Assembly: GCF_000313135.1 (NCBI RefSeq)
Contig: NW_004457390.1
Coordinates: 73,159 to 137,158 of the forward strand
Origin: Acanthamoeba castellanii str. Neff
Taxonomy: Eukaryota; Discosea; Longamoebia; Acanthamoebidae
Length of the DNA stretch: 64,000 nt
Direction of reading: 5' to 3'
Each line of letters starts with the position of its first letter. The stretch's first letter is position 1. A program made the position numbers and the translations under genes. The notes under the pieces were generated by a model, which was given only the letters and a program-made list of their open reading frames with translations, was not told where the DNA came from and made no database searches. Positions 1,125 to 46,715 of this stretch are shown in pieces.

Positions 1125-3727
1125 TCAGACATTGTCTTCGCTGTCGCCCAGTGTGCGCTTGCGCCCGCCGGACAGGAGGGCATCGGCGCGAGCAGTGGCG
1201 GCGGTGGCCCTCTGGCGCTCCTTGTCCTGCCAGTCGCGCAGGAGGCCCTTGGCCTCGTCGGCGCTCTGGCGCGCGCCGTCGACGCGACTGCGGGTGAGCC
1301 GGAGCGAGAGCAGGAGGCCGAGCGCGGCGGACACGGCGAGCACGAGGAACATGAAGTAGTGGTTGAACGGGAACGAGAGGTCGTTGGTCAGCGACCAGGC
1401 GAAGATCGCGCCGCCGGCGACGGGTCCGATGGTCTTGGCGATGGAGGCGACGGCTTCGCTGAATCCGTTGGCTGGCGAGGGAGCCGATCAGCGAAGAACG
1501 AAAGCGAAAAGAGCGAAGAGCGATCGCATGTGTTGCGTACCGGCGCCTCTGGTCTCGGGGCTGGCGGTGTTGTTGATCAGCACGAAGACCGCGGTGTAGC
1601 AGAGCGTGGCGCCGAGGGCGCGCACGATGCTGAGCGGAATGACGAGCATCCACAGCACGACCTGCCCCATCGGCACCACCAGGTTGAGCGCCGGAAACAC
1701 TGAAAAAAGAAAGAGAATGAGAAAGAAACAAACAAAGAAAAGAGAGAATCGTGTTAGTCCTAAGAAAGACGACAGCGCGACGGGGGGGAAGGCATGGCGC
1801 ACCCGCGAAGACGGGGATCAACAGCGCGAGTCCGATCCGGAACATCATCAGCGAACCGAATCGCTTCTCTAAATATTGTGTGTCGTGTGTGTCGTGCGCG
1901 GTGTGTGTCGTGTGTGTCGTGTGTGTCGTGTGTGTCGTGTGTGTCGTGTGTGTCGTGTGTGTCGTGTGTGTCGTGTGTCGTTAGGACATGGGCGAAATGG
2001 AGGTCGCGTAGGGGGTNCGAACCAAGGGTGGGGTAGATGAAGAGCTGGAAGACGACGATGGTGAGGCCCACGACGGCGAGCGCTGCGCCGACGTCGGTCG
2101 ACGAGAAGTCGAGGCCGCCCACCTCGGGCTTGTTGATGGCCCACAGCGAGAAGATCTCGACGAACACGAGCACCGAGAAGGTGAGCAGGCCGTAGAGCAG
2201 CGCGCAGATCACCACGTCGACGTCCTTCATGATCAGCCGCAGCTCCTCCCAGTTGCCGCGCTTCTTCTTCGACTCCTCCTCCCGCATCTGCGTGTCGCTC
2301 CGTATCATTAAAAACCGCACACGCAGACCGCACACACCGCACTCACACACCGCACACGCCGCACGCGCACCTTTTGGAGCAAGTGCTCCTTGGCCTCGGC
2401 GAGTTCGAGGTCGAGCTCGCGCTGGACCTCCTCCCTGAGCCGCCGCTCCGCCTCCTCGTCGAGCGCCTCGCCGCCGTCTTCTGTCTTCTGCGCGGCGGCA
2501 GCGGCGTAGGCCGTGGAGGACCGTCGGCGGCGCGGCGACGGCGTTTCGTCGATGACCAGCGCCAGGCTGGGCTTCTTCTTGTCCTCCAGGAACATATAGC
2601 CGCCCACCTGGTGGGCGTGTGTCGTGTCGTGTCGTGTCATGTGCGGCGTGTGCGCGTGTGGGGAGTGAACGCGAACCATGCCGGTGGCGGAGATGAGGGT
2701 GGAGACGAAGCACGGGAGGAAGTAGGGGAACTGCTCCAGGAAGTCACCGTGGAAGGTGTCTGGCGGGAACAGCGCCCCGTACTTCTGCGTCGGCTGCGAC
2801 AAGAAGCCGCCCACCGTCGGACCCACTACACCGCACGACACACACCGCACGACACACGCCGCACACGCACGGTTAGCAGAGCGCGATTGAAGGGGGAAAG
2901 AGGGAGCGAAGAAGAACGCACGAATGACGCCCAGGCCGTAGATGAGGGAGGTGACGGACATGGCGCGGGCCTGGTTGGTGCCGTCGGTCACGTCGCCGAT
3001 GTAGGACCGGGCCACGGCGAGGTTGCCGTTGAGGAGGCCGTGGATGGTGCGCGTGATGAGCGCCCACGCAAAGTTGACGCTCAGCCCGAACCCGAGCACG
3101 CTCACGAGCGACCCGGCCATGCCCACCATCAGCACCCGCTTGCGTCCCACTTTGTCTGACCACGCGCCCCACCAAAAACTGCCCGACACACACATACCGC
3201 ACACATGCACACGCACACGCACCGCACACTTCATAAGAGGCGAAACCGGGCGGGCGAGTGTGGGCGGGCGAGTGGGCGCACCTGGAAATGAATTGTGCAA
3301 AAGAGAAAGAAGAGGCCAGCATGCCGGCGTAGAATCCCACTTCTGTGGGCGAGCCCGCCACCTGCACGCATGCATGTGAGTGTTATCGTGTTGTGTGTGT
3401 GTGTGTGTGTGTGTCATGTTGCGTGTCGTACCCCGAAGTCCCAGACCATGAATGCCACAAATGGGAAGAGCATGGAGTTGGCAAACGACTGCACAGGTAA
3501 GGGTGAATAATTTAATAGATAATAATTCAATAAACTACAATTAACAAGCGAAATAATTAATAACTCAATAAATAAATACAGAAGAGTAGAGTAGGAGAGC
3601 ATGAGGGTGGTACCTCGCTGAGGTAGATGCAGGCCGTGACGAACATCTCCTTCTTGGGCAGTGGCGTTTCTTTTACCGGTGGCGGCCGCGTGCTCGTGCC
3701 ATCCTCTGGCCACCCGTCGTCATCCAT
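1125..3727 (-). CDS. MFS transporter, ZIF/YCR023C type
   Basis: Twelve-helix major facilitator transporter of 576 aa, probably a proton-coupled antiporter for metal-ligand or organic substrates. Ten exons chain in phase: 3727-3614, 3488-3432, 3361-3282, 3178-2922, 2825-2677, 2607-2371, 2287-2023, 1868-1803, 1699-1541, 1471-1125. MFS motif A is GAWSDKVGRKR after TM2. The antiporter motif C is formed across an exon junction as ILGPTVGGFLS in TM5. The central cytosolic loop (about residues 225-315) is long, charged and coiled-coil-like (many Glu/Arg), which is typical of plant ZIF and fungal YCR023C relatives. The C-tail is basic and coiled-coil-like, ending RKRTLGDSEDNV. The Met at 3727 is the one nearest the transporter domain; an in-frame upstream ATG would add a basic leader. 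One intron holds a 9-mer minisatellite and an ambiguous base. Confidence 0.88.
1881..1980. repeat. intronic 9-mer minisatellite (CGTGTGTGT)n
   Basis: About nine tandem copies of a TG-rich 9-mer inside the MFS intron 1869-2022. Because the unit is a multiple of three it has no stops, which produces false CVVCVV-type ORFs. Confidence 0.9.
2017..2017. other. ambiguous base (N)
   Basis: Single unresolved base six positions into an MFS intron. It does not affect the coding sequence as modelled. Confidence 1.
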
Positions 3728-4101
3728 GTGTGCGAGAGTCGCGCCTGCAGCTGCAAAACGATGGTTAATCGTTGCTCGATAATGGAATCTTAAAATCGTG
3801 TAGAGCTCCAAATTTCCGGGATTCATTCCCGAATGTGAGGATGAGGGGATCGAACCTGGCAAATGCTCGGCAAGGGGCAGCGTGCACCCGGCGTAGAAGT
3901 TGTAAGGAAGAAGAACAGAAGAGGAACCGAAAGGCCGAACGCCAGGCTGGAAGGAGGTGGTGCGCTGAAGCCTCTACCGCTTTATCTAGGGCTTGCGGAT
4001 CGGGGTTTTTTCGGGCTCTCTGGGACGTAGACTAGCCGCCCGTCCTCATGTAGCCTCGTGTGCCCAGAGGAAATTGTTGAGATGTGTCTACTCTGTAGTC
4101 T

Positions 4102-4521
4102 ATGCAGACTTCTATAGATGACGGATGCAATGCATCGTCCGTGCCTGCCTATGTCAAGGCGGCTGAGAACAAGGGCGCCGCAGTCATGGCCTTTGATTTA
4201 CCCCAACGCATCGAAGCCAAGTCTTTCGTTCGCCCGACGGACGCCTGGCTCCGCTTCACCAACAACCAAGGCCAACGTCCGCCTGAACGTCTTTTTCTGC
4301 TGTTTTCTATCTCATTTCTTCACACTTCTTGGTGTCCTGGGCTGTTTATGCCTTGGGCAGACATTCAGGGGAGACCGCTGTGGACGCCCTGCGGCGAGAA
4401 CTCTAAGGCCAACGAGGCCCTGGCGACCACCCCGTTGATAAGCAGCGTCCACGCGGTGGTTGAACAACACGATGGAGGCAAGTGCGAACTCAAGGGTTGC
4501 AAGCAACGCCCGAGCGGGTGA
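4102..4521 (+). CDS. hypothetical ORF, 139 codons
   Basis: Open frame from an ATG to a TGA. The first half (about 60 residues, with SFVRPTDAWLRFTNNQG) and the last 40 residues look coding-like. The middle, with LFLLFSISFLHTSW, reads like an intron. I do not recognise it; it may be a decayed gene. Confidence 0.2.
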   Translation: MQTSIDDGCNASSVPAYVKAAENKGAAVMAFDLPQRIEAKSFVRPTDAWLRFTNNQGQRPPERLFLLFSISFLHTSWCPGLFMPWADIQGRPLWTPCGENSKANEALATTPLISSVHAVVEQHDGGKCELKGCKQRPSG

Positions 4522-4610
4522 GAAGATTTTCTGTCTCAAGCACGGTCAGAAGCTTGACCGTGCGAATCCACGTCTACTGCCCCGCCTGTTACTGTCAAGC
4601 GGGTACAGCG

Positions 4611-4973
4611 TCACAAATCCCTCGTAACTGCGCGCCTCTGGTGGATAGGCCTAGTAGGACCACTCTGTTCTCTCGCCCATGCCAATTGTGGGCTCAAAAC
4701 TGCTGCTGCTGCCAATGTTGTCACGACCATGGGGGGGTCACCACCATAGTCATTAATCTTCTCTTCGCCCTCCAGGACACTGGCGTTCCTCTTGAGCGAT
4801 GCCTGCTGATCCTGAAGCCTCAGAGGTGGGAGTTTTCCAGCTGGATCAGACAACACAATGGGAATGCCAGAATAGAACAGGTCTTCTTCATGTTGTCCTT
4901 GTTCTTTCTGTCCTCTTGGTTGTGTTATGTGAACTCTTGTGTGTAGTTGCCTGTGTTTTGTTGTTTGTTGCAA
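4611..4973 (-). CDS. hypothetical ORF, 120 codons
   Basis: Open minus-strand frame in the low-GC stretch. It includes FYSGIPIVLSDPAGKLPPLR and a Lys/Glu-containing segment, then an Ala-rich end. No recognised domain. It could be coding or chance. Confidence 0.15.
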   Translation of the reverse strand: MQQTTKHRQLHTRVHITQPRGQKEQGQHEEDLFYSGIPIVLSDPAGKLPPLRLQDQQASLKRNASVLEGEEKINDYGGDPPMVVTTLAAAAVLSPQLAWAREQSGPTRPIHQRRAVTRDL

Positions 4974-4980
4974 CAGTTCA

Positions 4981-5232
4981 TTAACAAAGAAAGCCCACTA
5001 CACATTTCTTTTGTGGTGGGGGAAGGTGCCTGATGCCATGTGGACAATGTGGTTGGTGTTGGTGGAAGCTGTGATGGCAGCCACCAAGGTGGTGAGGTCG
5101 GTTGTGGGGTTCATCTTGTGGGTGGTCATAAAAAAAATGTTTTATGTCCAACGATCAGGTACCATGTGCGACTCCAGCAATGCCACAGAGGAGGAGGCAG
5201 AAGAGGGTGGCGAGGAGTGGCCAAGGCTCCAT
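4981..5232 (-). CDS. candidate small secreted His/Cys/Pro-rich peptide
   Basis: Two-exon model 5232-5163 and 5114-4981, joined over a 48-bp GT-AG intron with a T-rich tract; 67 aa. The N-terminus MEPWPLLATLFCLLLCGIAG is a textbook signal peptide. The mature part is dense in His, Pro and Cys (for example PHHLGGCHHSFHQHQPHC) and ends VVGFLC. This is inferred from composition and splice signals only. An upstream in-frame Met at 5547 would instead make a longer protein with a Ser/Arg-rich N-terminus (5547-5155). The alternative reading frame of exon 2 is also open, so the model is uncertain. No homologue is recognised. Confidence 0.25.
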
Positions 5233-5920
5233 CATGGGAGGGAGTGAGGGGAATGACTCCACCTGCCAGATTTGCTGCAGTGTGAGGCCATGTGAAGGCA
5301 CTGCTGCAAACTTAGTGGAAAGGAGGGTAATGGCGGTGTTGACAATATGAGTCAGAGTTCCTGCTGTTGCTTCTGTATTGGGAGCACTGTTCCATTCTAC
5401 TCCTTCTCTCAATCTTGATTTGGACCTCCTGCAGCAGTTAACTGTTGATGAGCTCCTACTCCTCCCAGTGGTTTTAGATGGCCTTTGGGGAGACACTGTT
5501 TCCTGCATCACATTCCTTGTTGCTTCCCCTTTCTTCACATTGTCCATGAGCTTGTGATGTCAACACAAAAAAAGCAACAAGGTGTACTAGCTACAAATAC
5601 TGATGATGTGGTGACCCTTTTTGATACACTCTTGGAGTTATATTGTGTGTATGTGGGAAATTGTTTGTTCTGTACTGTGTACACCACATGATGTTTGCAT
5701 GACCAAACCATGACAAGTATCCAATATACCCCAGCAATGTACCATTTATTGTAACCACACCAAGAAAAGGGAAGCTAGTGAACCATGAATAAACAAAGGT
5801 GCAACAGCAGCAACCCAAGGATCACTTTTTGGTCGGGGGAGTGCCACGTCAGCAAGCACCGCGTACCAGGTAAAACAAACGACATGCGGAATTGAACGGA
5901 GAGATCGATAGTTTCGTAGG

Positions 5921-35899: not shown

Positions 35900-36096
35900 G
35901 CGGGTGGTGGGCTCCTCTTCATAGCCTTCTTGCCCTATGGCCCACGTTTCACATTGTTCGGCCGTCTTCATCAACACATCTGATAAAAAATAAAATAAAA
36001 TAAAAAACAAGACAAGAATGCCAACAATTTCGAAAAAAGGCGGGAAAACAAAGTACCCAACGATTGAAGCAAAGCAGAACAAGATCTATCTGAGAG

Positions 36097-38368
36097 ATGG
36101 GAAACGAAGCTTCGACGCCGATTCCGTACAATGTACAGGCCGAATGGCGCAAGCTGGTGAGCGGATCGCCCGCAGTGCCTGCTGGACGCGAGGGCCAGGT
36201 AGCGGCCTCGTGGGAAAACAAATTGTACATCTTTGGAGGGGGCTCGAGCGGCGGAACCCAACGGGCCGACATGTGGACCTTCGACCTGGGTATACCGACG
36301 TTGCTGACTTGCGCTCCTACACTTTTTACCTTCTTTAACTTCGATTTAACTCCTCACAGACTCGTCTGAGTGGAAGGAGGTCACCACGAGCGGCAATGGT
36401 ACTGTTCTTATGCTTCTTCGGTCATGCAAGATGAACCACCATCTCTCTTCTCTATTTGCCTGTCTTACCCTGCTCTTCTCTCGGGCACCCGACAGCCCCC
36501 TCCGCACGCACGGGCGCCTGCGCTGCGGTTGTCGATGGCCACATGTTCGTCTTTGGCGGCATGGACATGGAGCGAGGCTTCCTCGACGACTTCTACTGCT
36601 TCAACATCGGTACCACACGTCTCGCCTTCCCTCGACCAGAGTTTGTTTTGTATTGTGCTCTTACACTTCATCTCCACTCACTCTTGACCGTCTGACGATC
36701 ATTCCCCAGCCGAGGGGACGTGGGAGCAGGTGCAAGGCTCCGGAGAGGGACCCACGCCGAGGGACAAGAGCGCGGTCTGCGTCGTTGGCAAGTGCGTTGT
36801 TGCTGCGGCCCCATCATCGCACCCACTCCCGGCCGGGAGACCCACTTCTCACTTATCCACCTCCACCCGGCTCGCTCACCACACCAGGAAGCTCTATTTC
36901 TTTGGCGGATTCGGACCGGTCGAGGCCGAAGTGGAAATGCCCGATCGCGATGAAGCGTCGACGAACGCGGGCGAGGACGGCGCCGATGACGAGGGTGAGG
37001 AGGATGAGTACGAGGACGAAGGACCCGCCATGAGCTTCAACTGGTTCGACGATCTGTTTGTCTACGACACGGGTGCGTTTACATGGCTTGTGCCCTACCC
37101 AGATCCGCCGCTCGATCCCTACCTCGTGTTGTTCATGTGTGCCGTGTGTGTCATGTGTGTCATGTGTGTCGTGTGTTGTGCAACAGAATCGAAGGCCTGG
37201 CAGCAAGTACAGGCCAGCGGTGACATTCCTTCGCCTCGCGCTGCATTCGGGATGGACGTCGTGGGTGGCTCCATCTACGTTTTCGGCGGCAGAGACACCA
37301 CCAAGAGGCAGAACGATCTCTACGTGGTTCGTACACGCATCGCACCTCCAAACCGCTGTTCTCTGCGTTAATGAACTTCTCTTTTCGCTTCTTCTCGCTT
37401 CTTCTCATTAGCTTGATACCACGACCAACACTTGGACCAAGGTACGCTGGCATGGCTCGGCCTGGCGCTCCAGAACGTGGACTAAGGCTTGCCTCTGTGC
37501 CCCCGCCCCCCAATTGTGTTTGATTGCAGCCTTCGGTGTCTGGCGCGGTACCTGCGGAGCGTTCCTTCCACAGCTTCACATCGCTCGCGCCGGCCGGCAA
37601 GCAGCAGCTGGTGCTCTTTGGCGGGCTCTCCTCCACCAACGCCCTGCTCGACGATGTTCACGTCTTCGATATCGGTATGGCACACCATCTTATTTATTTA
37701 TTTTTATATAATAAATAATATTCTATTGTTTCAACTCAATTTGGACCACGTGCAGCTACGTCCGCTTGGGTGCAGCCGACCATCGCTGCCAACGACAGCA
37801 GGATCAACGCGCGCCGCTTCCATTCGGCCGTGCTTCACAACAGGTGGGTGAATCACAGTTCACTTCTGGAATTGTGCATGTCGGACTGCTCACCCCCCCC
37901 CCTCTTTGCTTCTTCGTGGCCTGCAGGTCGTTGGTGGTGTTCGGCGGGTCGAGCAATTTCAGTCCCGACACGCAGGAGTGCCTCACCTTCCACAGTGACA
38001 CATTCGCGCTCGATCTCGGCCCCGTCTTGGAAGCGGCGCCGGTCACCATTCCGCCGCCGGCAACAGCTGCCGCCAGCACCTCTTCTTCGTCTTCTTCCTC
38101 CTCCTCCGCGGCCCCGTCTGTGAGCTTCATATGTACCGCCTCCGCTTCTTTCTTCGTTCTTTTTCGTTCTTCGTTCTTCTTCGTTCTTCTTTTCATGATT
38201 ACTAATTGGCGATCAGCTTCGTCGGCTTCGACAGAAGGAGGAGCTGCCGGTGACGCCACGAGAGGGAAGAAGAGAAAGAGCGACGAGATCGAAAAGGGCG
38301 AGAAGAACGAGGAACCAGAAGGCCACGGCGGAGAAAAGGAAGCAGAGGAAGAGAAGAAGAGGGAGTGA
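36097..38368 (+). CDS. Kelch-repeat beta-propeller protein
   Basis: Five to six Kelch blades, each with a GG and spaced aromatic: KLYIFGGGSSGG, HMFVFGGMDMERGF, KLYFFGGFGPVEAE, SIYVFGGRDTTKR, QQLVLFGGLSSTN and SLVVFGGSSNFSP. An acidic loop (about 36940-37030) interrupts blade 3. After the propeller come a poly-Ser stretch and a basic, NLS-like tail GKKRKSDEIEKGEK, ending in Glu/Lys repeats at TGA 38366. The N-terminal MGNEAS could be myristoylated (Met-Gly-Asn), which would fit membrane location and conflicts with the NLS-like tail. Likely a scaffold or interaction protein; no enzyme domain is present. Confidence 0.85.
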
Positions 38369-38441: not shown

Positions 38442-41400
38442 TCAGAAGCAGTCCTCCTCGTCCCACACGTCTTCGTCCCATTCCTCGCCGCCGCCGTCCG
38501 CCGGTTCGTCGTCGTCGTCGTCGTCTTCGTCGAACTTGAGGTCGATCGCCGCGCGCAGGGTCTGCGCGATGACCGAGAGCGACATGCTCGACTGCCGCTT
38601 TCGTTTCTGTGATTTGTTGATTGTAGTGTAGGGGCCCTCTGAGCTCTGATCACCCACGCGACACGACACGCAACACACAACACGCCGCGACACAATCGCA
38701 CACGCGAGTACCTTTCGGAGGGCTTCGATGTCTATCTTGTTGAGCTGCTTGCCGGCCTTGATCTGGGCCAACAGAGAAGTGTTACCGGGCACACTGAGCG
38801 CACAACAAAGCGAAGAAGAACATGAGCGACAATCTTCAATAAAAGATGCATAAATAAAATAGCAAAGAGAAATTCGCATTTTTTATAACATAAATATTAA
38901 ACATATAAATGTAGCAAAAGGTGAGAGTGATGGGAGTGGACCTCGTCTGTCCCGAGGAGGTGAGTGCGCTTGGCGGGGCTGGCGCCATTGGGGCCGCCGG
39001 GGCCATGGGCGCCGTCGGCGCTGCCGGAATCGCCGAAAACGATCCCGAGCGGTTGAACGCCGGCTGCTGAGTGTCGTGCGTGCGTGTCGTGTGTGCGTGC
39101 GTGCGGTGAGTTTGAAGACACGATGCATGCAGTGAAAAAGAAGAAAGGAACGAAAGAAGTGGTGGGCGCACCGTGGAAGCGGCTGGAGCGGCGGCCTGGG
39201 TGGTGAGGGTGCGCGCGACGGCGGTGACGCAGGCCACGAGAATCTGCGAGATCTGCGCCGAGAACGAGGCCGCCTTCTGGTTCGACGCGAAGCGCTGCTG
39301 GAAGGTCGCCAGCTTCGCCTGCACGCCGGCCAACTCCCGCAGCAGCTCATGGACCGACTGCGAACCGGTTGAGCACACACGCGATTTAGAACACTTTCGA
39401 CATGATCAAGCCGGCCCAGCGGGGCCATGCTGTGCCAGTGCGTACCTCCTCACGCTTCTTCTGCTCGATGGCGTATTCGATGAGTTCGTTCTCGGCCTTG
39501 GCCTGCGCGTCTTCGGCGGTGGCGATGGCGGTCTCCAACGTCTCCATTGTGGCCAACACCTATCAAGAGGGGGGTGAAAGAACGAAGCGCGATGAGAAGA
39601 GAGAAAGAACGAAGAGAAAGAACGAAGAATGAGAGGAGGGGGGGAAGAAGGTGGTTACCTGCCCGAGCCGCTGCACGATGGCTGCGTTTGCCTGGGTCCG
39701 CGCGTAGGAGCTCTTGCGGACGCTCTGTCGCGACGATTGCGCGTGGGTGGAGGTTCGACCAGCTCCGGCCGCCGCGGGCTTCTCGCCCACAGCGGCGCTC
39801 TTCTTTCCGTGCATGGCCTCCATCTTCTTCCTGCGCAAGGTGGTTAATCCTCAGCCCTCACTCCACCGCACACACGACACACCGCACGCACGACACGACA
39901 CGCACCACCGCACACGAGTGCGTGAGTGACGGGGAAGTGTACCTGGCAGCCTCTTTTCGCTGCAGGATGGTGTCCATCTCGCGCCTGGCGTTGTCCTTCT
40001 CGCGGCGTGCGGCCTCGAGCTTGCGGATCAGCTCCTCGCCCTCCCGTCTCAGCTGTTCGTCCGACACCGGCGCTGCGGCCGACGCCGACGCCGACACTGT
40101 CGAGCCCGAGCCCGAGCTGTAGTTGAACAATTAAATAAATAATCGATCAAATAATAATCCACGTCGGCTTACCTGGTCGTGGGCAAGGTGGTAGCCGACC
40201 CGGCACGGCCTCGCAGGTTCTTCAGCCTGGGGGAGGGGACACGGTGAGTCGATAAAAAAAGGTGAGCTGGGACCCACCTTGGGGGGGGGGAGTTGATGGC
40301 GTACCGATCGCCGTAGGAGGCCAGAGCGGCCTGAGGCGATTTGGTGGTGGCGGAGGCGGCCGAGGTGGAAGCGGCCGCCGACGACGGCGACGCCGACGGC
40401 GACGAGGACGAGGATGAGGACGAGGACGGAACCGCCGGCGAGGACGACGATCGGAACATGCCGCCGCCGCCGGTGGCCGGCGAGGCGGCCGGCGAGGAGG
40501 GAGTCGACAGCGTTGTGGTGGCCTTTGTGGTTGACGGCCCGGATGCCGTCGTCGGCGTCGGCGAGACGGTGATGGCGGGAGTGGTGGAGACGGAGGCTAC
40601 GGAGGTCGTCGTCTGCGAAGCCGCGCTCGAGGACGCAGGGGTGATCGCGGAGCCGCTTCCGCTCGAGGTGGAGGAGGCCAGCGACGACGCTGTGGCGCCG
40701 CTCTGGTTGCGTCGCCACGAGGGCGTGTTCCCAGAGCTGGAGGCCGACGACGACGCTGCTGACGGCGACGACGCGGTGGAAGGCGAAGACGCCGCAGAGA
40801 GGGTGAAGTTGCGGGGCAGGGTGTTGGATGCGTAGGTGCGCGCGGGCGAAGCACTGCCGGCGGCGCCCCACTTGCGGGCGCTCGTCGTGCCCGATGTCGA
40901 GCCCGAGGCTGCAGGGGTACTAGTCGTGGCCGCCGCCGCGGGGGTCGTCGAGGCCGAGGTCGAGGCTGGGGTGGACGAGGCGGCGGTCGAGCTGACGGTG
41001 CTCCCCCAGCGCCGGAGCGAGCCCGAGCCGGTGTTGGCGGGCGATGATGCAGGCGACGAAGAGGAGGCGGCCGCGGGCGTGGAATTCGTGGCAGCTGCGG
41101 CCGTGGCGGTGGGAGTCGACGCTGGCTTCACCGCAGGCGCCGAGGCGGTCGAAGCGAGGCTGGTGGGGGCAGCAGCGCGCGAGGTGGTAACTGACGGCGA
41201 CGAAGCCGAGATGGCGCTGTTGTAGCCCGGGCTGCTGCGAACACCGCTTGCCGACGCGGTCGCGGTCGCGGAGGAGGTCACGGTCGACGCAAAAGCGGGC
41301 GCGGGGCTCGCCGGCGCCGCGCTGTTGATGACCGCCGCCGAGGCCGCGGGCGCCTTCTTCTTGAACGAGAAGCCGCACTTGACGCAGAAGTTGGGACTTC

Positions 41401-41985
41401 CCTGCACGGCGAGAATTGTAAGCAAGCAAAGAATTGGAAGATGAATGAATGGCAGGTGTACCTTGTAGCCGGCACCGCACTTGCCGCAGTTGCCGTCCGG
41501 GTTCTGGCGGGCGAGCATGGACGCTCGCTTGAACGACGCGCCGCAAGCCGTGCAAAACGACGGCGTTCCCTGATAGGCGGTACACATTCAAAAATTAAAA
41601 TAAGATATTGATAAATAAGGTAAAAGGGATAGAAATAGAAATAGAATATATTTATATTACAAGTGAGCTTATTGTGGAGGTACCTTGAACGCGACCCCGC
41701 ACTTGTAGCAGTCGCCTGGTCACGCACGGTTACAAAAATGTAATACAAAAATAAAAAAAATGAAGGGAAGCACGCACCTCCGTTCATCTTGAAAATACGG
41801 CCCGGACCGTCTCGAGAAAAGAAGCAACAAGAGGACGACTCAAGGGTTTGCGTCGGGTGCCGCCTTACCCTCTGGTTGTGCCGGCAGAGCTCTTCTTCGT
41901 CCTCTCGCTTTGGTATTGCGGGCGGGAATGCGGTGTCGACACAATAAAAAAACAAAAAGCTGAAAAAAAAAGAGTTGTGGAGCAT
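38442..41985 (-). CDS. zinc-ribbon / coiled-coil protein with C-terminal WH2-central-acidic (WCA) module; candidate Arp2/3 activator
   Basis: In-phase exon chain. The N-terminal part has four CxxC pairs forming two ribbons: CYKC...CTAC and CGKC...CVKC, each followed by a [AS][FY]K-type strand. A very long Ser/Ala/Thr-rich exon follows (41400-40290), then coiled coils (EEGELIRKL-type heptads 40110-39950; 39550-39460; 39360-39300). A Pro/Ala segment (PAAPTAPMAPAAPMAPAPP) lies in 39066-38942, the WH2 motif LLAQIKAGKQLNKI in exon 38793-38712, and the central helix VIAQTLRAAIDLKF plus acidic tail with EEWDEDVWDEE in exon 38606-38442. This Pro-WH2-C-A order matches WASP/WAVE-family nucleation-promoting factors. 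Start uncertain: Met 41985 or the Met of MNGGDCYKC near 41785. No WH1, SHD or WASH N-domain seen. Confidence 0.7.
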
Positions 41986-42016
41986 TGATTGATTAATGAT
42001 ATCCAATTGAAGAGGA

Positions 42017-43832
42017 ATGGGAAACGTAAGGATGGGCAAGAGGCTCCTCCTTCCCCTGTTTCTCCTATTTATCGCTATTTTTTCGGTTGCATCGACGCTC
42101 GAGCTCGATTACGAGGAGGGACACGAAGTGGTGGCGCGCATTGCGGCACACGACGTGCAGGCAAAGAGCAACATCATCAAGGAGCTTGTGGATTTGGGCT
42201 TCGGTCCCGAATGCCCCAAATCGAATCAGTCCTATGTCGAAGTGAAGCTTCCCGAGATCGAACTGATGAAGCTGCAGCACCTGGCTTCCAATCTCACCAT
42301 TGTGGAGGACCCTACAAGAGAGGAATTCCTTCGATTCCTTGAGAGCAGCCGTTCGAGGGGAAAGAGAGGGGAGCGAGCGATCGATCCTAATGATCTCTAC
42401 AAGCACTACCACGATCAGAACCAGATCTCGAACTTCCTTGATGAGATCGTGCTCAAGTGCCCGAACATCGCGCGCAAGTACTCCATTGGCAAGACATTCC
42501 TCGGCGCCGAGCTCTGGGCCATTCGCATCACCGACAACCCTGGTACGCAGCGACCCATTAATAATAGGAATCCATCTTCCAACAGTTGTCGTTGGCTTTG
42601 GTTTGATGTGCAGAGGTGAACGAGGTCGGGGAGGTGGAGTTCCAGTACATCGCCAACATGCACGGCGACGAGGTCGTGGGTCGTGAGCTGTCGCTCTACT
42701 TCATCTACCACCTCTGCGACCAGTACCACCAGCCGCGCATCAAGGCCATCGTCGACAACACCGACATTCACATCTTGCCCACCATGAACCCTGATGGTGC
42801 GTGCGTGCGCGCGTGCGCCGAGCTTTAGTGCTGATCTCGTTCTTGACTCCAGGCTTTGCCGGCGGACGACGTGCCAACGGCCGCCGCAAGGATCTGAACA
42901 GAAACTTCCCTGATCAGTTCGACCCCACCACCTGGGGCCGCCCTAACCCGGTCTCCCCGCTCCCCCCGCTCGGCACCGGCTCTGGCGCCTTCGTCGCGCC
43001 GGTCGGCAACTTCGAGCCCGAGGTCGTCGCCGTGATGCAGTGGATGGGCGACCACAACTTTGCCCTCGCCGCCAACTACCACGGTGGGTCGGTCGTGGCC
43101 AACTACCCCTTCGACGGCAATCGCCAGCGGGAAAGCGGCCGATACGCCCCTTCTCCCGACGACCTCCTCTACAGGTACCGATCATCGCTGCCTTTCCTGT
43201 GCACCATCTTCTGGTCATTCGCAAGTCTCTAAGCAGTTGTATGTGTACGTCTCGTGCGTTCGTGCGTGTTGTGTGTCGTGTGATCGCACAGGCAATTGGC
43301 TCGCGTCTACGCAGCCAACAGTCAGACGATGTCTGGGTCGCGCGAGTTCCCGAGCGGCATCACCAACGGCGCCGACTGGTACGTGCTCTACGGCGGCATG
43401 CAGGACTATGCCTACCTGTGGCACGGCACCCTGCACATCACCGTCGAGCTCTCCGACGAGAAGTGGCCGGCCAAGGAGACGCTGATCTCGTTCTGGAACG
43501 ACAACCGCGAGTCGATGCTGGCCTACCTCGAGCAGACTAAGTACCGCGTGTGGGGCGTCGTCACCGACTGCGCCACCAAGGCGCCAATCACCGTCGGCAC
43601 CGTCATCGTCGAGGCCGAGTCGTGCCACTCCGCCAACTGCCGCATGCAGGCCGTCAAGCTCGACCGTGAGACGGGCGACTACCACCGCATCATGCCGCGG
43701 CCGTCCGCCACCACCAACTATGTCTTCACCGCGTCGAGCTCTGGCTACGCGCCCGTTTCCCACAGCGTGGCCGTGGGTCCCAGCACCGCGCTGCCGCATC
43801 GCCTCGACTTCTGCCTCAACAAGGCGAGCTAA
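42017..43832 (+). CDS. secreted zinc metallocarboxypeptidase, M14 (CPD/CPE/CPM-like)
   Basis: Removes C-terminal (typically basic) residues from peptides. 523 aa from exons 42017-42542, 42614-42796, 42853-43174 and 43292-43832. A cleavable signal peptide covers residues 1-27 (LLLPLFLLFIAIFSVAS). A propeptide-like region of about 95 residues comes next. The catalytic domain has zinc ligands in NMHGDEVVGRE (HxxE) and ANYHGGSVVANYP, substrate-binding residues in DLNRNFPDQFD and the general base Glu in TLHITVELSDEKW. The C-terminal 90 residues form the transthyretin-like beta domain usual in the N/E subfamily (YRVWGVVTDCATKAPI). All catalytic residues are present, so an active lysosomal or secreted enzyme is likely. 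Confidence 0.93.
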
Positions 43833-45583: not shown

Positions 45584-45599
45584 GGTGAGCCAATCACTT

Positions 45600-46139
45600 A
45601 TTATCTTACATACATATAACCTGTACAAGGCAAGTACTTCCTTCACAACAAAGTTCATTTAATAAATACTACATTTGTGATTTATCTGGTTGGAGCTGGT
45701 GGTCCCCATCACTTGTTGCTGGGCTCGTCGATGAGTCGCACCTTGTCGATTCCCACGAACTCGACGTCGCTGAAGCCGTCAGGGTGGAGCCCCACGGGCA
45801 GGTCGGCGTCGACCCAGATCGGCTTCCGCATGTACCACTCGTCCATGAGGCGACGCATTGGTATGCGGCCCTTGTTGAGCTCGACCTCGGTCGACCGCAG
45901 CACGTTGGCGTGGTTGGAGGGGGTCACCAGCTCGACGCGCACCCGGTCGGCCCTGCCCGAGGGCGAGCGGATCGCCATCTTGGGGGCCTCGACCACTTTC
46001 TTGGTCACCGCCCCTCCGGGGGCCGCCCCGCCGCTGGGTGTCCTCCTTCTCATTAGCCGCTCCTCTTCCTTCGACAGATCCATCTCTTTCCCAGCTGAGC
46101 AACTCAAGTGTCTCTTCAAGCAACAAAACTTTTGTGTTT
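45600..46139. repeat. copy 1 of a near-identical ~540-bp duplication flanking an assembly gap
   Basis: Aligns at a 577-bp offset with about 46178-46715. Only scattered differences exist, for example ttaataaa versus ttattaaa in the 3' flank and aactcaag versus agctcaag at the 5' side. Confidence 0.9.
45709..46083 (-). CDS. 124-aa protein, unrecognised (copy 1)
   Basis: Start MDLSKEEERLMRRRTPSGG, end DKVRLIDEPSNK. Basic N-terminus with Gly/Ala spacer, then a beta-rich region (VRVELVTPSNHANVLRSTEV, RRLMDEWYMRKPIWV, LHPDGFSDVEFVG). An acceptor-like ctcag lies just before the Met, so an upstream coding exon is possible and could lie in the gap. No family recognised. Confidence 0.6.
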   Translation of the reverse strand: MDLSKEEERLMRRRTPSGGAAPGGAVTKKVVEAPKMAIRSPSGRADRVRVELVTPSNHANVLRSTEVELNKGRIPMRRLMDEWYMRKPIWVDADLPVGLHPDGFSDVEFVGIDKVRLIDEPSNK

Positions 46140-46175
46140 NNNNNNNNNNNNNNNNNNNNNNNNNNNNNNNNNNNN
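46140..46175. other. assembly gap (36 N)
   Basis: Run of 36 ambiguous bases between the two copies of the duplicated segment. Confidence 1.
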
Positions 46176-46715
46176 CTTACATTACTATATATGTAACCTG
46201 TACAAGGCAAGTACTTCCTTCACAACAAAGTTCATTTATTAAATACTACATTTGTGATTTATCTGGTTGGAGCTGGTGGTCCCCATCACTTGTTGCTGGG
46301 CTCGTCGATGAGTCGCACCTTGTCGATTCCCACGAACTCGACGTCGCTGAAGCCGTCAGGGTGGAGCCCCACGGGCAGGTCGGCGTCGACCCAGATCGGC
46401 TTCCGCATGTACCACTCGTCCATGAGGCGACGCATTGGTATGCGGCCCTTGTTGAGCTCGACCTCGGTCGACCGCAGCACGTTGGCGTGGTTGGAGGGGG
46501 TCACCAGCTCGACGCGCACCCGGTCGGCCCTGCCCGAGGGCGAGCGGATCGCCATCTTGGGGGCCTCGACCACTTTCTTGGTCACCGCCCCTCCGGGGGC
46601 CGCCCCGCCGCTGGGTGTCCTCCTTCTCATTAGCCGCTCCTCTTCCTTCGACAGATCCATCTCTTTCCCAGCTGAGCAGCTCAAGTGTCTCTTCTTGCTA
46701 CAACTTTTGTGTTTT
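46176..46715. repeat. copy 2 of the gap-flanking duplication
   Basis: See copy 1. This copy continues into unique sequence with a TATA-like aatataaaac at about 46714-46723. Confidence 0.9.
46286..46660 (-). CDS. 124-aa protein, unrecognised (copy 2)
   Basis: Predicted product identical to copy 1 as translated. It is divergent to the RhoGEF gene with about 160 bp between them, so this copy has an intact promoter side. It is the more likely authentic locus if the duplication is an assembly artefact. Confidence 0.65.
   Translation of the reverse strand: MDLSKEEERLMRRRTPSGGAAPGGAVTKKVVEAPKMAIRSPSGRADRVRVELVTPSNHANVLRSTEVELNKGRIPMRRLMDEWYMRKPIWVDADLPVGLHPDGFSDVEFVGIDKVRLIDEPSNK

Follow-up and report, generated by a model that had tools for sequence, protein, structure and literature searches.

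Gene organization and domain layout

The genome of Acanthamoeba castellanii str. Neff carries, in a 64,000-nucleotide stretch of contig NW_004457390.1 (positions 73,159 to 137,158; hereafter the window, to which all coordinates without a contig label refer), a minus-strand gene at 41787-38442 that probably encodes an Arp2/3 nucleation-promoting factor. In brief, the predicted protein begins with two zinc ribbons and a long Ser/Ala/Thr arm, after which come coiled-coil block 1, coiled-coil block 2, a Pro/Ala stretch, a WH2 motif, a basic stretch with a central (C) helix, and an acidic (A) tail. The last three form a probable WCA tail. Contigs are denoted below by C and a number; that of the window is C155.

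Our hand-built gene model has, in its final version, 12 exons and 2316 nt encoding 771 residues with no internal stops. The start ATG is at 41787, and position 41985 is upstream sequence. All 11 introns are of the GT-AG type, with lengths between 56 and 148 nt; intron 10 has the most unusual donor, GTCCAC. An earliest draft model was dropped, its acceptor and donor being wrong, and a first model of 780 residues was superseded after comparison with P0001, the single related protein described below. The 780-residue model has nine residues more than P0001 at the exon 4/5 junction. Because of this excess the exon 4 donor is placed at 40304 and not at 40277, and exon 4 ends at 40305 instead of 40278. 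The start of exon 10 is ambiguous, since either AG of CAGCAG may be used (39063 or 39066). The features of the gene, all on the minus strand, are as follows.

41778..41787, minus strand: exon 1, start codon (MNG); gene model, donor GTGCGT
41684..41715, minus strand: exon 2, first half of zinc ribbon 1 (CYKC); gene model, CxxC at residue 6
41462..41569, minus strand: exon 3, second half of ribbon 1 (CTAC) and first half of ribbon 2 (CGKC); gene model
40305..41401, minus strand: exon 4, second half of ribbon 2, Ser/Ala/Thr linker and SPQAALASYGDR; single open frame, donor from P0001
40173..40226, minus strand: exon 5 (LKNLRGRAGSATTLPTT); P0001 comparison and model check
39943..40116, minus strand: exon 6, coiled-coil block 1; P0001 identity, helix in the low-confidence P0001 model
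39659..39830, minus strand: exon 7, end of block 1 and start of conserved coiled-coil block 2; P0001 comparison
39446..39559, minus strand: exon 8, conserved coiled-coil block 2; P0001 identity, C93 paralogue
39172..39357, minus strand: exon 9, end of block 2 and next helix; P0001 comparison and model check
38942..39063, minus strand: exon 10, Pro/Ala stretch without PPP; model check
38712..38793, minus strand: exon 11, WH2 (SLLAQIKAGKQLNKI); Pfam, PDB profile, P0001 and C93
38532..38606, minus strand: first part of exon 12, basic stretch and central helix (SVIAQTLRAAIDLKF); P0001 and C93 comparison
38442..38531, minus strand: last part of exon 12, acidic tail with two tryptophans, final CF and stop codon; gene model and P0001

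The initial annotation placed zinc ribbons, coiled coils and a WCA end in one gene, with about the last eight junctions in phase. This holds, with the exon 4 donor moved: exons 38793-38712 and 38606-38442 are in phase with the ten exons upstream, and the open frame of exon 4 joins the second ribbon half to a piece shared with P0001. The annotation also knew of no described family with this layout, a statement that has to be withdrawn. WAWH proteins, that is WASP without WH1, are recognised by a GTPase-binding domain (GBD) homologous to that of WASP, and a type II was described from amoebae in 2012 with two N-terminal CxxC motifs, a Ser-rich region, a GBD, a long coiled coil, a Pro-rich region and a VCA end (Kollmar, Lbik and Enge 2012, available part of PMC3298513). 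It should be noted that this published layout includes a GBD.

The probable C-terminal WCA tail

The tail consists of the WH2 motif, the helix and an acidic end (EEWDEDVWDEEDCF). That the last two coding exons encode WH2, helix and two-tryptophan acidic tail in this order was proposed in the initial annotation. The strongest evidence for it comes from the alignment of WH2 with C to a paralogue on C93 and from the retention of WH2, C and both tryptophans in P0001. The WH2 family of Pfam matches the tail with 19.0 bits (E 0.0011) and the whole protein with 15.3 bits (E 0.016). On the same scale, four other tails of the genome give 28.2 bits (C90), 20.2 bits (C124) and no match (C99 and C207). 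The window WH2 is not among the six over-cut-off WH2 places of the genome profile search. Among PDB chains, the tail profile matches the tandem WH2 of N-WASP (3m3n) best, with E 0.011 for the whole chain and no single stretch passing alone. Matches of the tail to C236 (E 0.165) and C44 (E 0.89) were taken as chance matches of acidic stretches.

The published C motif has three hydrophobic residues four apart, a basic doublet or triplet, and a final hydrophobic residue (available part of PMC3298513). In the window helix the hydrophobics I, L and I are present, followed by one K and F where the others have the basic doublet. Four tails of the genome, aligned by hand, gave a 13-column profile of the helix core. 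Its best place in the protein is 44 residues from the end, at a score reached by 306 of 20,000 segment shuffles and by 9 of the 687 open reading frames (ORFs) of the window, the gene's own frame included. The amphipathic helix of the initial annotation is there in its hydrophobics and its core, and lacks the basic doublet of the full standard motif. On balance, the tail is a probable, slightly degenerate WCA.

Zinc ribbons, arm and coiled coils

Residues 1-66 hold four CxxC motifs, at residues 6, 20, 42 and 56, making up a double zinc ribbon. The DZR family of Pfam matches residues 1-78 with 25.8 bits (E 1.2e-5) and the whole protein with 19.9 bits. The two ribbons align with a score of 100 (shuffle mean 24.9), reached by none of 5,000 shuffles, and introns 2 and 3, both of phase 0, interrupt them at the equivalent place. 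Given the matching introns and an alignment far over the shuffles, a tandem duplication is the probable origin of the two ribbons. The window gene is absent from the 22 matches at E <= 1 of the DZR profile over the genome, as one would expect with its ribbon divided by introns, and a protein search with the ribbons as query returned zero candidates. Intron 3 (41402-41461) is 60 nt long, of phase 0 and open; its retention would therefore add 20 mostly hydrophobic residues within zinc ribbon 2.

The linker that follows is about 340 residues long (67-405), and 79% of it is S, A, T or P. Within this arm, SPARTYASNTLPRNF (40805-40849) has a counterpart, SPARPGYSTLPRNF, near the start of P0001, and Trp/Arg motifs lie nearby. 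A short piece, SPQA.LASYGDRLKNLR, common to P0001, stands between the arm and coiled-coil block 1.

Long helices are seen in a low-confidence structure model of P0001. Block 2 is conserved between the window protein and P0001 at 84%, about as well as WH2 (86%) and above the level to be expected for a simple coiled coil; this points to a partner surface. Coiled-coil pieces match several Pfam families, DUF1690 (E 0.0062) and GAS (E 0.0065) ahead of the rest; all these matches are under their cut-offs and were treated as coiled-coil noise. AUGMIN subunit 2 (E 0.88), the sole PDB match for the profile of the whole C-terminal part, was treated as a chance coiled-coil match. The Pro/Ala segment before the tail is present as annotated, and a run of three prolines is not: the longest run after residue 600 is two, and PPP occurs nowhere in the protein. 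The profilin binding that had been proposed is not borne out by such a stretch.

A related protein and a paralogue

P0001 is a protein of 463 residues from a 1,804-base JGI contig. It was the one protein found at E <= 1 (query residues 444-780 of the 780-residue model) among 7,983 scored candidates from about 5.8 billion proteins, the candidates scored being those that share most words. The absence of further relatives says little, because the search reaches only relatives with exact five-residue words. With block 2 of P0001 as query, nothing beyond P0001 itself appeared among 219 candidates. The BLASTP alignment covers residues 345-751 of the first model, and the MAFFT alignment extends to the end.

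The single open frame of P0001 reads straight through where the window gene has introns 4 to 11, eight in all, and P0001 therefore probably derives from a transcript. Its intron-free sequence supports our splicing over somewhat more than the C-terminal half. Identity peaks in block 2 (64/76), WH2 (19/22) and the basic stretch with the C helix (23/26), is low in the Pro/Ala stretch (18/50), and amounts to 34/57 in block 1 and 21/29 in the acidic part. WH2 and C are kept, and both tryptophans and the last nine residues are identical.

In a genome search, block 2 with the part downstream of it matched four times. Three of the matches fall on the gene itself; the remaining one, C93:351462-351662, has 36% identity over 67 residues (E 1.4e-8) and belongs to the following paralogue.

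C93:347000-356500, about 4448-5556 of this stretch: C93 paralogue, sharing block 2, WH2 with C, and an intron boundary

By reading, the order on C93 is block 2, a Pro-rich piece with six consecutive prolines, WH2 (SLLSAIREGKQSADLQALRQ), a C helix (LTDTLREAMKMRNDAM) and the acidic end DEDDWLG. The C-A end is more standard than that of the window gene. Block 2 of the two genes aligns with a score of 120 (shuffle mean 36) and WH2 with C at 70 (shuffle mean 25), each reached by 0 of 10,000 shuffles. The intron between WH2 and C, intron 11 of the window gene, lies at the same codon boundary, between ALRK and KR in the window gene and between ALRQ and KR on C93.

GTPase-binding domains and other actin factors of the genome

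Neither the window protein nor P0001 has a PBD match in Pfam. The PBD profile over the genome gave 20 matches at E <= 1, at 13 places, none of them on C155. HxxH is absent from the window protein, and a loose CRIB pattern is absent from all six frames of 36-46 kb. A GBD hidden within the gene was not found by any of these searches.

The 13 PBD places were checked by motif reading of the surrounding 5-9 kb stretches. Eight have a kinase catalytic loop (C131 among them), four have an acidic tail with tryptophan (C98, C99, C207 and C124), and one, C78:197 kb, has neither. Ribbons and a WCA tail were seen together at 0 of the 13 places, a reading that an intron-split ribbon would escape. C131:224500-232000 (about 1137-3650) holds a PAK-like gene whose successive exons encode a zinc ribbon with a Ser-rich stretch, a CRIB and also kinase motifs; as a candidate for WAWH type II, having ribbon and CRIB, it was ruled out by the kinase motif.

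The gene on C207 has a basic region, CRIB and the tail, with no WH1 match there, and by these features fits WAWH type I. WH1 matches over the cut-off lie on C99, C98 and at C78:438 kb, weak ones at C78:197 kb and C207:998 kb, and none at E <= 0.1 on the window's contig. All four WAHD matches, marking WASH, are on C167. The initial annotation was therefore right that the N-terminus is neither WH1 nor WASH. The Arp2/3 subunit ARPC3 is present, on C51.

Three further loci resemble parts of the window gene. C124:1318000-1327000 (about 2489-4083) holds a gene like a nucleation-promoting factor, with the start MGCCSSS (a possible acylation signal), CRIB, WH2 and CA; the gene beside it presumably encodes a Rab-like GTPase. 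C90:192000-197100 (about 1162-3738) holds a coiled-coil gene with a Ser-rich part, a PPP stretch, WH2 and a C-A end, and has no PBD match nearby. C72:332200-338200 (about 1484-2789) encodes a zinc ribbon and then a coiled coil, and about 0.5 kb further on polyproline, WH2 and a Gly-rich stretch. We take the WH2 part to be WIP/verprolin-like, and the locus is perhaps a second protein with ribbon and WH2.

A survey reports that A. castellanii has 14 CRIB proteins (available part of PMC8847673). A survey based on CRIB would miss a gene like that of the window.

Neighbouring genes

Head to head with the window gene lies an M14 zinc carboxypeptidase gene (42011-43832, plus strand); its ORF 42011-42616 matches Pfam with E 1.9e-6 and its ORF 42947-43229 gives no match. 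A Kelch-repeat gene (36094-38368, plus strand) converges on the window gene, and both of its two tested ORFs match Kelch families. At 45589-46633 a frame of about 150 residues is nearly repeated on either side of a short N run, as an assembly duplicate would give. Elsewhere, C78:195000-204000 (about 6490) contains CGGCG...CEQCGFRTDRDWNGARNIWLKFL, which resembles the zinc-finger end of a TnpB/Fanzor-type nuclease.

Proposed function and alternative explanations

As a fairly likely reading, we suggest that the gene product is an Arp2/3 nucleation-promoting factor whose WCA tail is paired by the coiled coils, whose ribbons serve as anchor, and which escapes direct Rho-GTPase control. The C-terminal WH2 would deliver an actin monomer, and Arp2/3 would be engaged by the C helix together with the acidic tail and its two tryptophans. 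The coiled coils, chiefly block 2, may join two or more tails or bind a partner, and paired WCA ends could fill both Arp2/3 sites. The zinc ribbons, at the tip of the flexible Ser/Ala arm, would anchor the protein at a cellular site. Because no Rho-GTPase-binding domain is found, we infer that activity is set by recruitment, oligomerisation or a partner, and not by direct binding of Cdc42 or Rac.

Several results weigh against this reading. The WH2 match lies under the Pfam cut-off of 23.1, and the DZR match lies under its cut-off of 27.3. The WH2 ends in LNKI, where the published pattern is L-[KR]-[KR]-[VTA] (available part of PMC3298513). An 18-column C pattern with the basic doublet is not present in the window helix, whose score is reached by 5,463 of 20,000 shuffles (27%). 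Direct comparisons with the other tails of the genome are mostly not significant. For WH2 with C, 1,587 of 5,000 shuffles reach the score against C99 and 3,380 that against C207; against C124 and C90, whose strings are WH2 only, the figures are 980 and 31. WH2 alone gives 1,354 against C99 and 8 against C90, and the C helix alone gives 120 against C99 and 793 against C90 (all of 5,000). Even against C93, the score of C alone is reached by 205 of 10,000 shuffles. The coiled coils are assigned from a single-sequence structure model of P0001 of low confidence (mean predicted local distance difference test score, pLDDT, 55). P0001 stops short of the zinc ribbons, and conservation is drawn from two sequences and one paralogue, because the protein searches yielded one relative only.

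A possible but doubtful alternative is that the gene is simply the WAWH type II of this amoeba, perhaps already in the collection of the 2012 authors, with its GBD absent or too diverged here. A. castellanii does carry WAWH homologues (available part of PMC3298513), and the window gene is the only type II candidate seen, the 13 PBD places having shown no ribbons beside a WCA tail in a reading that an intron-split ribbon would escape. The GBD by which WAWH is recognised is not found in it, and the two CxxC motifs in the available part of the paper face four in the window protein. In addition, the GBD-bearing genes on C207 and C124, which have no WH1 match, could alone account for the WAWH homologues of Acanthamoeba.

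Another alternative, which we can entertain only tentatively, is that the window gene and C93 form an independent coiled-coil WCA family that came to the layout of WAWH type II by convergence, the ribbons being added to the window gene only. The two genes share block 2 and WH2 with C strongly, the window WH2 with C is little like the GBD-bearing tails of the genome, and zinc ribbons also occur on the PAK-like kinase (C131) and the WIP-like protein (C72). Against this, the WH2 with C of C93 is closer to those of C207 (109 of 5,000 shuffles) and C99 (205 of 5,000), and about 980 bases read as N upstream of its coiled coil mask its N-terminus, any GBD included.

It is unlikely that the protein is no nucleation-promoting factor at all and instead serves as an actin-monomer scaffold, its acidic tail binding something else, or binding Arp2/3 without activating it. 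The window helix does lack the basic doublet of the four other tails compared, and the Pro/Ala stretch lacks a profilin-type proline run. Yet the basic stretch and C helix are among the parts best conserved in P0001, both tail tryptophans are kept, and the C93 paralogue retains its more standard C-A end.

That a zinc-ribbon protein and a WCA protein were wrongly joined is very improbable: P0001 does not cover the ribbons, but these belong to the same gene because exon 4 continues in a single open frame from the second half of ribbon 2 as far as the SPQA.LASYGDR piece common to P0001, and all junctions are in phase.

Well-known Arp2/3 activators stay inhibited until they are freed by a GTPase or a large complex. 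If the gene does encode a nucleation-promoting factor, its WCA tail, conserved coiled coil and ribbons without a GTPase-binding domain would represent another mode of control, in amoebae that serve as models of crawling. Going further, we speculate, with low confidence, that the window gene and C93 make up an Arp2/3 activator family of their own, in which a GTPase-binding domain was never present, with control through block 2 and a tandem-ribbon head for targeting. In this reading, the ribbon heads of the PAK-like kinase (C131) and of the WIP-like protein (C72) would hint at one zinc-ribbon docking site shared by actin regulators of these amoebae.

Comparison with known nucleation-promoting factors

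The WASP genes of the genome (C98 and C99, with WH1, CRIB and an acidic tail) share with the window gene the WH2-C-A order, clear in C99; the window gene has neither WH1 nor CRIB. From WASH it differs in the N-terminus, as WAHD is not found at the window gene. WHAMM and JMY have an N-terminal domain of their own, a coiled coil, a Pro-rich region and WH2-C-A. The window protein resembles them in its predicted long coiled coil, placed before a Pro/Ala stretch and WCA, and in having no GBD, and is set apart by a layout with zinc ribbons and a Ser/Ala arm. WHAMM arose in metazoans (Kollmar 2012, available part of PMC3298513). WAML of Entamoeba (IMD, WAID and VCA; same source) likewise has a VCA without CRIB, but an N-terminal IMD, for which Pfam gives no match in the window protein.

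Our literature searches combining zinc ribbon with WH2 or Arp2 terms found no such protein; zinc ribbon with WH2 returned work on transcription factors or RNA polymerase III. In the other papers sampled, the name WAWH occurs in reference lists only. WAWH type I, as on C207 and C124, shares with the window gene a VCA end and the lack of a WH1 match, and the tail of C207, too, contains two tryptophans and ends in F. These genes differ in having CRIB, and no zinc ribbon was seen in them.

Compared by the published description (available part of PMC3298513), WAWH type II is the closest, with N-terminal CxxC motifs, a Ser-rich region, a coiled coil, a Pro-rich region and VCA, again in amoebae. No Dictyostelium type II protein came up in the word-based protein searches with the window gene or P0001. 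In the window protein the serine-rich region follows the CxxC motifs and a VCA ends the chain, with the front half of C only. The place of the coiled coil fits, long helices being seen only in the low-confidence P0001 model. At the place of the Pro-rich region stands a Pro/Ala repeat without PPP, whose longest proline run is two. Further differences are the two ribbons with four CxxC motifs instead of two, the lack of the basic doublet in the C helix, and the lack of a recognisable GBD. Because WAWH was recognised by its GBD, we do not file the gene as a member. By its predicted layout the protein is a WAWH type II-like factor without a GBD, and the gene may be a WAWH type II that lost it. With a concrete candidate that has a defined conserved block, the WAWH type II class becomes testable.

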